From Balneolaceae bacterium (lineage in GTDB: Bacteria; Bacteroidota; Rhodothermia; Balneolales; Balneolaceae): DNA of 64,000 nt. Positions 45,135 through 50,101 of this stretch are shown in pieces. A program made the position numbers and the translations under genes. The notes under the pieces are model-generated. The model worked only from the letters and a program-made list of their open reading frames with translations, was not told the DNA's origin and searched no databases. Location of the stretch: positions 1 to 64,000 of the forward strand of contig REDS01000126.1 of NCBI GenBank assembly GCA_007693395.1. The letters are read 5' to 3'. Position 1 is the first letter of the stretch, and each line of letters begins with the position of its first letter.

Positions 45135-46931
45135 GTGGAATCACTAAAAAAACTGAACCATTATTTAAAAAAGTATAAAGGGGCGGCGATCCTTGGCGGG
45201 ATTTTCCTCACAGGTGCAAACTTCTTCCTTATCTGGATTCCGGTACTGATCCGGCAAACAATGGATGAAGTTGAGGCGCTCGGTGCAGATGAGTCCGCTG
45301 AGTTCGATTCCATAATAACCATTCTGTTTTCCAGCGAGGCAGGTGCTATTCTCGCATACAACTCTTTGCTGCTTATTGGAACTGTTTTTCTGTATGGTAT
45401 TTTGCTATTTGCCACACGGCAGACGCTTATCGTAAGTTCCAGAAAAATTGAGTTTGACATTCGTAACACCATTATGGACAAACTCCTGCAGCTACCCCAG
45501 CGATATTTCTCAGCTAACCGAACCGGCGAAATTTATGTAAGGGCTACAGAGGATGTGGGCAGAGTGCGCGAATATTACGGCCCTGTACTGATGTACACAA
45601 TCAACACCATTACACGTGCTGGTTTCATCATTACGATGATGATTATTGTTAACCCCGAGCTTACATTTTGGGCACTGTTGCCCCTGCCTTTTCTCTCTGC
45701 ATTTGCATACTGGGTAAGCGGATTCATCAATAAATACCAGCTCATTATTCAGGAGCAGTATTCACGGATTGCGGGCAAGGCTCAAGAGACTTTCAGCAGC
45801 ATCAGGCTGATTAAAGCCTACAACCGTATTGATTATGAGCAAGAGCGCTTTGAGGAAGAGAGCGATCAGTACCGTAAAAAGAAACTGAAGCTTGATTTGG
45901 TTGAATCTCTCTTTCACCCAACACTAAACCTTCTTATCGGGGTGTCTGTTTTAATTGTAGTATGGAAAGGCGGGCTTATGGTAATTGACGGGATCATTAC
46001 CCTGGGAAATATCGCTGAGTTTGTGATCTATGTAGCATATTTAACCTGGCCTGTTGCCTCGCTCGGCTATACTGTAAACGTATTGCAAAAATCTCTTGCT
46101 TCGTGGGAGCGTATTGATGAAATGCTTACCGAGCCCATTGATATTCTGGATGATGAAAAACCGGCCGTGGAGAAAAAACTTAAAGGAAGCATAGAATTCA
46201 GGAATGTAAGCTTTAAATACCCCGGAGCAGAGGAATACGCTTTAAAAAATGTGAGCCTGGAAATTAAACCGGGGAGTAATATGGCAATTGTTGGACGTAC
46301 AGGTTCTGGTAAATCAACTCTGATAAATCTCATTCCACGTCTATTTGATGCAACCGAAGGTGAGGTTTTGATTGATGGAATCAATGTGAAAGAGTGGGGT
46401 GTTCAACATCTTCGTAAATCAATTGGTTATGTACCGCAGGAAACCTTTCTTTTTTCAACCACAATTAAAGAGAACATAGCCTTTGGAGTTGAGAATGCAT
46501 CAACAGAACAGATAGAAAAAGCTGCCGATCAGGCGCAGGTGCTGGATAATATTTTGGATTTTGAGAAAAAATTTGAGACACTTGTAGGGGAAAGAGGTAT
46601 TACACTATCGGGTGGACAAAAACAACGAACAGCCATTGCAAGGGCAATTATTAAAGATCCTGGAATAGTAATTTTTGACGACTCTCTCAGCGCAGTAGAC
46701 ACAAAAACTGAAGATGCAATTTTAGAGCATCTGCGCGTGAAATTATCTGACAAGACCACTATAATGATATCTCACAGAATTTCTACAGTAAAAAATGCTG
46801 ATACAATTTTTTATGTTCAAAATGGTTCAATAGTAGAATTTGGTACACACAGTGAACTAATTAAAAAGGAAGGACATTACTCTAACATGTACCAAAAGCA
46901 GTTACTGGAACAAGAATTAGCTGAAATTTAA
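45135..46931 (+). CDS. ABC exporter half-transporter with Walker B glutamate replaced by aspartate
   Basis: A 598-residue half-transporter: six membrane segments (about residues 15-330), then an ATPase domain with Walker A GRTGSGKST, signature LSGGQKQRTAIARAI, Walker B IVIFDDSLSAVD and the H-loop MISHRIST. The residue after the Walker B aspartate is Asp, not the catalytic Glu, as in the degenerate-site subunit of heterodimeric exporters such as BmrC. Its probable partner is the half-transporter at 48311, which has the canonical DE but an altered signature. The start is GTG 45135, giving the usual short cytoplasmic leader. An RNase Z-like gene lies between the two. The substrate is unknown (drug, lipid or peptide). 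Confidence 0.9.
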   Translation: MESLKKLNHYLKKYKGAAILGGIFLTGANFFLIWIPVLIRQTMDEVEALGADESAEFDSIITILFSSEAGAILAYNSLLLIGTVFLYGILLFATRQTLIVSSRKIEFDIRNTIMDKLLQLPQRYFSANRTGEIYVRATEDVGRVREYYGPVLMYTINTITRAGFIITMMIIVNPELTFWALLPLPFLSAFAYWVSGFINKYQLIIQEQYSRIAGKAQETFSSIRLIKAYNRIDYEQERFEEESDQYRKKKLKLDLVESLFHPTLNLLIGVSVLIVVWKGGLMVIDGIITLGNIAEFVIYVAYLTWPVASLGYTVNVLQKSLASWERIDEMLTEPIDILDDEKPAVEKKLKGSIEFRNVSFKYPGAEEYALKNVSLEIKPGSNMAIVGRTGSGKSTLINLIPRLFDATEGEVLIDGINVKEWGVQHLRKSIGYVPQETFLFSTTIKENIAFGVENASTEQIEKAADQAQVLDNILDFEKKFETLVGERGITLSGGQKQRTAIARAIIKDPGIVIFDDSLSAVDTKTEDAILEHLRVKLSDKTTIMISHRISTVKNADTIFYVQNGSIVEFGTHSELIKKEGHYSNMYQKQLLEQELAEI

Positions 46932-47002
46932 AATATAAAAACAGAAAACGGGGATCTTTTGTTTGAACGGCAAAAACCCATAAAACATACCGGGAGAAAA
47001 CA

Positions 47003-48277
47003 ATGATTATTGTACCCTTAGGCGTTGCATCAGCAACCCCAACAGCAGTTAGACACCTGCCATCAGTAGCCCTATGGAGAGAAGGCGATGTTCACCTCTT
47101 CGATTGTGGCGAAAATACCCAAATGCGAATGCTACAAGCCGGCTTAAAACGCTCAAAAATTGAGAATATATTCATCAGCCATTTTGATGTAGATCACTTC
47201 TCAGGTTTAATCGGGCTTCTTTCAACCCTGCAACTTCAGAGAAGAGACAGAGCCTTAAATATTACAGGTCCTAAAGGCATTAAAGAATATGTGGAGTGGA
47301 ACCTTAACTTTGCAAAAGTAGATCTCAGTTTCGATCTGAACTTTGTTGAGGTGGAGGAAGATTTCGAATCTCAACGGGTAGTAGATGAGGAAGAGTACTA
47401 CGTTGAGGCGAGGCCGTTAAATCATTCAAAATTCTGCATGGGTTTCCGCTTTCAGGAGAAAGACAAACCCGGAAAAGTAGATGCCGAAAAAGCTGGAGCA
47501 CTGGGTATTACAGAAGATGCGCAGTATAAGGCGTTGAAAGCCGGCGAGGATATTGAGGTGGACGGGAAAGTCATCAAATCGTACGATATTGTTGGCCATC
47601 CGCGTCCGGGAGATAGCTTTGCTTACATCTCCGACACAAAATATTGCCCCAATGCCGTAAAGCTGGCAATGAACACCAATATTCTTTATCACGAAGCTAC
47701 ATTCAGTGAATCGCTGGCTGATAAAGCAGCTGAAACCGGCCATTCAACCTCAGGTGATGCTGCGCGCGTAGCAACAGAAGCTCAGACCAAACTGCTTGTT
47801 ATTGGCCACTTCTCAGCAAGGTATACAAATCCGTTTGTTCTGCTTAGAGAAGCGCGAGCCAAATTCTTCCCGGCATGGCTGGCAACTGAACTGCGGCCTA
47901 TATACACAAACCCTGCCCAGGAGAAAGGCATTGTTGAGCAGAAGGTGTATATCAAAGAGATTGATGATAAATCGGATTCGAAGACGTCGCGTAAAAAGAG
48001 CTACGACAAGGGCGGCAGCAGCGGTAAAAAATTCAGAAAGCGCAGAAGCAGCTCCGATCGTGGCGATGACCGAAGAAGCAGCAGTTCAGGCAGTAGAAGA
48101 GGAAGTTACAGCCGCAGGGATGATTCCGGTGGCGAGCGCAGAAAGCGAAGGCCCGAACGGCAGCCACGGGATCGTGATTATAACAATAAAGATTACAATA
48201 ACGATAATCAGGGAACAGCGCGGCCACCTAAACATATTACGCCAAGAACTCCTTTTGATAACTTCGACCGTTTCTGA
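47003..48277 (+). CDS. RNase Z-like metallo-beta-lactamase-fold protein with basic disordered tail
   Basis: A 424-residue protein. Residues 1-315 follow RNase Z: FDCGENTQMRMLQAGLK, a metal motif at 60-65, PLNHSKFCMGFRF (His ligand region), YISDTKYCPNAVKLA, ILYHEATFSE, GHSTSGDAARVATEA and VIGHFSARY. RNase Z removes 3' trailers from tRNA precursors. The usual HxHxDH motif is HFDVDH here, so the second His is Asp (D62). Residues about 320-424 form a low-complexity tail rich in Arg, Ser, Gly and Asp (for example RRSSSDRGDDRRSSSSGS), probably disordered and RNA-binding; standard enzymes lack it. Catalytic activity is therefore uncertain. It lies between two ABC half-transporter genes, 71 nt after the first and 33 nt before the second. 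Confidence 0.8.
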   Translation: MIIVPLGVASATPTAVRHLPSVALWREGDVHLFDCGENTQMRMLQAGLKRSKIENIFISHFDVDHFSGLIGLLSTLQLQRRDRALNITGPKGIKEYVEWNLNFAKVDLSFDLNFVEVEEDFESQRVVDEEEYYVEARPLNHSKFCMGFRFQEKDKPGKVDAEKAGALGITEDAQYKALKAGEDIEVDGKVIKSYDIVGHPRPGDSFAYISDTKYCPNAVKLAMNTNILYHEATFSESLADKAAETGHSTSGDAARVATEAQTKLLVIGHFSARYTNPFVLLREARAKFFPAWLATELRPIYTNPAQEKGIVEQKVYIKEIDDKSDSKTSRKKSYDKGGSSGKKFRKRRSSSDRGDDRRSSSSGSRRGSYSRRDDSGGERRKRRPERQPRDRDYNNKDYNNDNQGTARPPKHITPRTPFDNFDRF

Positions 48278-48310
48278 TTTAGGTAACGCTCTAAAATTCA
48301 GGCCGTAAAT

Positions 48311-50101
48311 TTGAAGCAAAAAAAACAATCTGAAGCCGCCGATTCTGTTTTGATTCGGCGGCTTTATTACTTTTTCCATCCTTACCGCTGGTGGGCTGTG
48401 TTTGCAATTCTGCTTACGCTAACCGCCGCTTTTCTGGGAACAGTTCGTCCGAAGCTTACCCAGGTTGCTGTTGATGATCATATTGCCATCGGGGATATCG
48501 ACGGTTTACTTTGGATTGTGATACTGCTTGCCCTTGCTCTTGTAGGCGAATTTTTTATTCTGATTCTGAATACTTACATAACACGATGGTTTGGACAGGG
48601 CGTACTGTTCAGCCTCCGTAATGCAGTTTTTGAAAAAATCCAATCACTCCACGTTCAGTTTTTTGATAAAAATCCAATAGGCCGTCTCATTACCCGAACA
48701 ACCAACGATATTGAAGCATTAAGCCAGCTTCTTTCGGATGGTGTTGTTAGCATGATTGGTGATCTTTTTCGAATTTTTTTCATTCTCTACTTTATGTTGG
48801 TGATGAGTTGGGAGCTGACCATTATCGCCATTTTGGTGTTGCCAATACTTTTTTATGCCACATTTTGGTTCAAGAGCAAAGTGAGGGTAGCCTTTCTGGA
48901 GGTTAGAGATCAGATAGCAAGGCTGAACTCTTTTGTGCAGGAACACATCAACGGTATGATGATTGTTCAGCTTTTCAACAGGGAAAAAAAACAGAAAGAG
49001 AAATTTGAATCTATCAATGCAGAGCACAGGCATGCACACATCGAAACCATCTTCTATTTCTCCATATTCTGGCCAATTGTAGAGGTTCTTGCAAGTATTG
49101 CAATGGCGCTTGTAGTTTGGTATGGTGGTGCACGGGCGCTAATGGATCAGGTTACTTTCGGTGTGCTGCTTGCATTTATTCAGTATGTACGTCAATTTTT
49201 CAATCCAATCAGAGGCTTGTCAGAAAAGTATAATACGCTGCAATCGGCCTTGGCGTCATCTGAACGGATTTTCGATGTACTTGATACAGAGAATGAGGTC
49301 TACGAATCGGAATTACCCAAAAAACTGGAAAAAGTAGAAGGAAGAATAGATTTTGAAAATGTGGTTTTCCGGTATAATGAGGGTGAAGAGGTCATCATAA
49401 ACGACATCTCTTTCACTGCTAAACCGGGAGAATTACTTGCAATTGTGGGAGCTACAGGAGCCGGTAAAACTACTATAATAAATCTGCTTCTGCGTTATTA
49501 TGATATAAATGAGGGAACAATTTATCTGGATGGAGTTGATATTAAAGAGCTGTCGCTTAAAGATTTGCGAAAAAACTTCGGTTTGGTTCTCCAGGATAAT
49601 GCACTGTTTTCAGGCACCATCCATCAAAACATAACACTCGGCAACTCGGATATTACTCGGGAGCAGGTGATTAAAGCAGCCAAAGAGGTAGAAGCTGATA
49701 ACTTCATCAAAAAACTTCCCGGCAGCTATGACTATGTGCTTAGTGAGCGTGGGGCATCGCTCTCTATGGGGCAGAGGCAGTTAATTTGTTTTGTTAGAGC
49801 TATGGTTTATGATCCAAAAATTTTAATTTTAGATGAGGCAACATCAAGTGTTGACTCAGAGACCGAAGAGCTTGTTTCGCGTGCATGCCAGCGGATGATG
49901 AAAGGCAGAACCTCCATTGTAATTGCACACAGGCTATCAACTATACAGGGTGCCGACAATATTCTGGTTATGCATAAAGGTAAGATCAGAGAAACAGGTA
50001 ATCATCGTGATCTTATCGAAAAAAACGGCGGAATTTACAGAAAACTTTATGAGTTACAATACAAAGATCAAGCTGTTGGTACAAGCACAGCAATAAGCTA
50101 A
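48311..50101 (+). CDS. ABC exporter half-transporter with altered signature motif (partner of 45135)
   Basis: A 596-residue half-transporter with six membrane segments (about residues 25-315) and an ATPase domain: Walker A GATGAGKTT, signature LSMGQRQLICFVRAM, Walker B ILILDEATSSVD and the H-loop IAHRLST. The signature reads LSMGQ instead of LSGGQ while the catalytic Glu is kept, the mirror image of the upstream half-transporter. This matches BmrD-like subunits of heterodimers with one inactive site. The start is TTG 48311, and a strong hairpin (48333-48365) lies within its first 20 codons. The C-terminus is followed by a YqjD-like gene after 29 nt. Confidence 0.9.
   Translation: MKQKKQSEAADSVLIRRLYYFFHPYRWWAVFAILLTLTAAFLGTVRPKLTQVAVDDHIAIGDIDGLLWIVILLALALVGEFFILILNTYITRWFGQGVLFSLRNAVFEKIQSLHVQFFDKNPIGRLITRTTNDIEALSQLLSDGVVSMIGDLFRIFFILYFMLVMSWELTIIAILVLPILFYATFWFKSKVRVAFLEVRDQIARLNSFVQEHINGMMIVQLFNREKKQKEKFESINAEHRHAHIETIFYFSIFWPIVEVLASIAMALVVWYGGARALMDQVTFGVLLAFIQYVRQFFNPIRGLSEKYNTLQSALASSERIFDVLDTENEVYESELPKKLEKVEGRIDFENVVFRYNEGEEVIINDISFTAKPGELLAIVGATGAGKTTIINLLLRYYDINEGTIYLDGVDIKELSLKDLRKNFGLVLQDNALFSGTIHQNITLGNSDITREQVIKAAKEVEADNFIKKLPGSYDYVLSERGASLSMGQRQLICFVRAMVYDPKILILDEATSSVDSETEELVSRACQRMMKGRTSIVIAHRLSTIQGADNILVMHKGKIRETGNHRDLIEKNGGIYRKLYELQYKDQAVGTSTAIS
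48333..48365 (+). terminator. terminator-like hairpin inside the 5' end of the ABC gene
   Basis: AAGCCGCCGA (48333-48342) and TCGGCGGCTT (48355-48364) form a perfect 10-bp GC-rich stem with loop ttctgttttgat. Only a short T-rich stretch (TTTATTACTTTTTCC) follows. It lies 22 nt after the TTG start, within coding sequence. It could end the RNase Z-like transcript, attenuate the ABC gene, or hide its start. Confidence 0.5.

Follow-up and report, generated by a model that had tools for sequence, protein, structure and literature searches.

A lineage-fixed RNase Z variant of Balneolales with aspartate in metal motif II and a basic, disordered C-terminal tail

The rnz locus and the identity of its product

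In the window (the whole 64-kb stretch of DNA analyzed), rnz occupies positions 47003–48277 of the forward strand, running from an ATG at 47003, with a purine-rich GGGAG immediately 5′ of it, to a stop codon that ends at 48277, and encoding a product of 424 aa. It is flanked on the same strand by two ABC half-transporter genes, one 5′ (45135–46931) and one 3′ (48311–50101), and this ABC-rnz-ABC arrangement (45135–50101) is kept in most related Balneolales loci. We read this conservation as supporting orthology of the rnz genes and not as pointing to a functional tie, and we treat the transporters as conserved neighbors that stand outside the mechanism considered below.

Profile searches placed the product in the RNase Z family, where it scored 307.4 bits with TIGR02651, the RNase Z equivalog profile (cut-off 292.95), and 300.8 bits with NF000801 (cut-off 252), and gave no match to the Apyc1 profile PF23023. 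The B. subtilis RNase Z structure 1y44 aligns with the product at E = 3e-47, and the top PDB matches for its AlphaFold2 model were the B. subtilis RNase Z-tRNA complexes 4gcw and 2fk6 (TMt 0.88–0.89). The catalytic core, residues 1–310 (47003–47932, forward strand), was modeled mostly at pLDDT above 85, aligns to 1y44 and to the E. coli structure 2cbn, and includes the tRNA exosite arm, which aligned between residues 152 and 203. Within this arm, residues 168–172 read GITED instead of IPPGP or VPPGP. GITED or GVTEP also occurs in members of the same class that possess the canonical HxHxDH motif (loci L047–L049), and since these class-mates likewise lack PPGP, the exosite change predates the aspartate exchange described below. 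Compared with bacterial short-form RNase Zs (TIGR02651; 1y44/2fk6/4gcw and E. coli 2cbn), the Balneolales enzyme has in common the fold, the core length, the exosite arm and all ligands but one, whereas it differs in an Asp for the second His of HxHxDH, the missing PPGP and a basic, disordered tail of ~114 aa with a conserved end. Judged from its sequence, then, the rnz product is a lineage-fixed variant that descends from RNase Z and departs from the strict HxHxDH definition of the family.

Aspartate in metal motif II across Balneolales

Metal motif II of the product reads HFDVDH (47180–47197, forward strand; context SHFDVDHFSG), where Asp62, encoded by codon 47186–47188, replaces the second His of HxHxDH. 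This replacement had been pointed out in an earlier note made from the DNA letters, and alignment bears it out, with Asp62 falling on B. subtilis His65 and on the second His of E. coli HLHGDH. Ala takes the place of His65 in 2fk6, a structure with bound tRNA (HMAGDH in the alignment), and among the solved RNase Z structures matched, none has Asp at this position. The note had also recognized other ligand regions; the remaining ligand positions, H60, D64, H65, H141, D211 and H269, are all there, and E231 and H247 are present as well.

We read 97 distinct proteins gathered from a search of relatives and from 80 public loci, the majority of the latter bearing in their titles the name Balneolaceae, Balneolales or one of the group's named genera. 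All 97 carry HxDxDH, most often as HFDVDH (55), followed by HLDGDH (16), HFDTDH (10), HMDGDH (6) and a few others. Every one of the 96 distinct Balneolales sequences has Asp at the position of Asp62, and these same 96 are invariant for H60, D64, H65, H141, D211, E231, H247 and H269, while His occupies this position in each of 20 non-Balneolales RNase Zs, drawn from further orders of the class, from other classes of the phylum, and from B. subtilis and E. coli. A sequencing error, which a canonical HxHxDH in close relatives would have indicated, is ruled out by the 96/96 count, and the aspartate is no oddity of a single protein. The gene was found in 92 of the 99 relatives searched, three of the 99 lying outside Balneolales, and in all 64 relatives with completeness of at least 90% and contamination of at most 5%.

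With the Asp/His residue masked, maximum-likelihood inference on 67 sequences gave a tree that places a single state change on a branch with SH-aLRT 100; because this was a quick build with long outside branches, it supports one origin of the Asp and leaves that origin undated. A second order-specific residue lies near motif I, where position 38 is Asn in 95 of 96 Balneolales sequences and Gly or Ala outside, and it is a guess on our part that Asn38 compensates for Asp62.

Scanning 395 genomes of the phylum for the DNA pattern of I-x-H-x-D-x-D-H-x-x-G matched rnz in several Balneolales families. None of the 30 non-Balneolales matches that were retrieved (10 further ones were left out) is an RNase Z; most are ORFs of ~700 aa resembling the ComEC type, and the remainder are other metallo-beta-lactamase (MBL)-fold proteins. 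For this 395-genome sample of the phylum, the scan shows HxDxDH in RNase Z to be restricted to Balneolales. Because Asp62 and the tail are both fixed across the order, neither is a matter of chance, and the sequence comparisons identify the two together as a derived trait common to the entire order.

A basic tail, predicted to be disordered, that ends in a conserved peptide

The tail begins at about residue 311 and extends over 114 aa (residues 311–424; 47933–48274, forward strand) with a net charge of ~+15 and a composition rich in RS, RGG and YDN. AlphaFold2 predicts it to be disordered (pLDDT below 50). The earlier note had described a long basic tail foreign to standard RNase Z, and comparison upheld this description: the Balneolales proteins read measure 392–537 aa, as against ~300–330 aa for non-Balneolales RNase Zs, and all of the former have a basic tail that is absent from the latter. 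The tail evolves faster than the core, and its differences among close relatives cluster at third codon positions, a bias which shows that it is translated in the rnz frame. Among the other proteins of more than 150 codons in the window, none carries a tail of this type.

The last residues of the tail form a conserved peptide, ITPRTPFDNFDRF (48236–48274, forward strand), whose ending is kept across the order, being nearly always (P/S)(F/Y)D(D/N)FDRF with PFDDFDRF and close variants predominating. In its own genome the pattern FDxFDRF occurs once, at rnz, and this single match rules out a tag common to several proteins; among 80 Balneolales genomes scanned, 48 contained matches, nearly always at rnz. 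The conserved end is a candidate short docking motif for a putative partner, and a role of the tail as a whole in binding or clustering on RNA would fit its composition and its order-wide conservation. The rnz tail exemplifies how a tRNA-processing enzyme of bacteria can carry a long, disordered and basic extension, and its conserved end hints at a partner.

Metal site, catalysis and competing explanations

The second His of HxHxDH counts as an invariable metal ligand in RNase Z, and the enzymes examined to date are impaired when it is lost, such that an order with a natural and uniform Asp offers a ready-made experiment on metal choice by the MBL fold. Flavodiiron proteins, which carry HxExDH, bind iron and act as oxygen or NO reductases and not as nucleases, likewise have an acidic residue at this motif position; theirs is Glu, however, not Asp. 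In PNGM-1, an MBL protein with tRNase Z activity, the equivalent His93 ligates site 1 and binding of the metal at this site is weakened in H93A (PMC7404133), and Mn2+ restores the RNase activity of this mutant, inefficiently (PMC6882493); wild-type PNGM-1 is canonical HxHxDH and the mutant has Ala, whereas the Balneolales enzyme has Asp. The ComEC nuclease domain, a nucleic acid phosphodiesterase, shares the motif II Asp with Balneolales RNase Z: its motif II His is naturally Asp and its motif III His naturally Asn, Mn2+ stabilizes it whereas Zn2+ does not, and its nuclease activity depends on Mn2+ (PMC8579336). It nonetheless belongs to another family, being the extracellular domain of a membrane transporter that acts on DNA and has no tRNA exosite. 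The ComEC pairing of motif II Asp with motif III Asn is not reproduced in the rnz product, which has the Asp and retains His141 at motif III, and because ComEC differs at motif III as well, the choice of metal may not be decided by the Asp on its own. By analogy, our best reading is that site 1 of the Balneolales tRNase would prefer Mn2+ or Fe2+. For the altered metal use proposed in the earlier note, the follow-up thus supplied precedents at the same position (ComEC, PMC8579336; PNGM-1 H93A, PMC6882493), and the proposal stands as one by analogy.

Descent from RNase Z, the fixed Asp62, the other ligands, the conserved tail, the single over-cutoff copy and the CCA-less tRNA genes stand firmly on the sequences. 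We infer activity, metal preference and tail function of the Balneolales RNase Z within one explanation, which we hold to be probable on balance: a working tRNA 3′-end endonuclease with an Asp-altered metal site 1 and a tail that lends RNA affinity. In the ancestor of Balneolales, the second His of site 1 would have been swapped for an Asp that was then retained. The enzyme would keep two metals and cut precursor tRNA close to the discriminator, and the added carboxylate would make site 1 favor Mn2+ (or Fe2+) at the expense of Zn2+, much as the nuclease domain of ComEC does. The positively charged disordered tail would probably let it bind precursor tRNA, or other RNA, more tightly, and the conserved terminal peptide may dock a partner. 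A stronger form, in which the whole order switched the enzyme from zinc to manganese or iron through one ligand and gave it an RNA-binding, possibly condensing tail whose conserved end draws it to an RNA-processing complex, we regard as unlikely, and if such a switch were true it would tie tRNA maturation in a whole order to Mn/Fe supply.

A simpler possibility, to which we give a somewhat small chance, is that the enzyme is an active tRNase whose metal use never changed, with Asp62 ligating as well as His, and with the substitution and the tail serving as lineage markers of little functional effect. One ancient change followed by plain conservation, an otherwise unaltered active site and a tail diverging faster than the core all suit it, but Ala mutants at this position in PNGM-1 lose most of their activity, the 96 Asp residues without any reversion to His on the tree suggest selection, and the natural Asp of ComEC accompanies Mn2+.

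The preferred explanation of an active tRNA endonuclease also draws on the rest of the genome. Only one RNase Z scores above the TIGR02651 cut-off, namely rnz itself, and the second RNase Z that the earlier note had proposed looking for was sought and rejected, the next matches being far weaker; four of these weaker MBL matches, when read, showed canonical motifs and the appearance of other MBL families. CCA is unencoded in 24 of the 26 tRNA genes examined, which were obtained through a family search, so that maturation through an endonuclease and CCA addition is to be expected. Taken together, the sole over-cutoff RNase Z and the CCA-less tRNA genes indicate that the Balneolales RNase Z is probably catalytically active.

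In six genomes of the same class (G110, G172, G291, G369, G404 and G438; loci L289–L298), we observed weak MBL-fold matches and no over-cutoff RNase Z. In two of them, G110 and G404, the tRNA genes examined are mostly CCA-less, which implies that other nucleases can trim tRNA, that the need for rnz is no proof of its activity, and that the argument for RNase Z being essential because CCA is unencoded is weakened. These alternatives, the several further MBL-fold proteins in the rnz-bearing genome and the finding that E. coli RNase Z also strips AMP from proteins (PMC12663964) would accommodate a protein that has left tRNA maturation for another substrate, for example to degrade mRNA or rRNA to which the tail tethers it or to deAMPylate proteins, with another MBL-fold nuclease trimming the tRNAs. 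We think this quite unlikely, given that the rnz product exceeds the RNase Z equivalog cut-off and retains its exosite arm, while the other MBL proteins of the genome fall far under that cut-off. That the protein is a catalytically dead RNase Z retained for RNA binding is very improbable, for all that the loss of the equivalent His cripples tested enzymes and the tail has an RNA-binding look, because none of the other ligands or catalytic residues varies among the 96 sequences, unexpectedly for a dead enzyme, and because residual RNase activity is reported for B. subtilis RNase Z H65A (PMC12663964).

Among CCA-less tRNA genes, the base after the discriminator was C in all but one case, with the next two bases variable (23/24, 19/19, 28/28, 15/15, 11/11 and 10/10 in G000, G097, G067, G110, G404 and G117, respectively; loci L059–L083 and L134–L203), and the lone exception, in the set of 24, looks like a boundary artefact of tRNA calling. 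A link between Asp62 and this C is ruled out, as the same C occurs in genomes with a canonical RNase Z. The C may be due to pairing with the RNase P RNA, or else the tRNAs may be cut after C74 and then receive CA.
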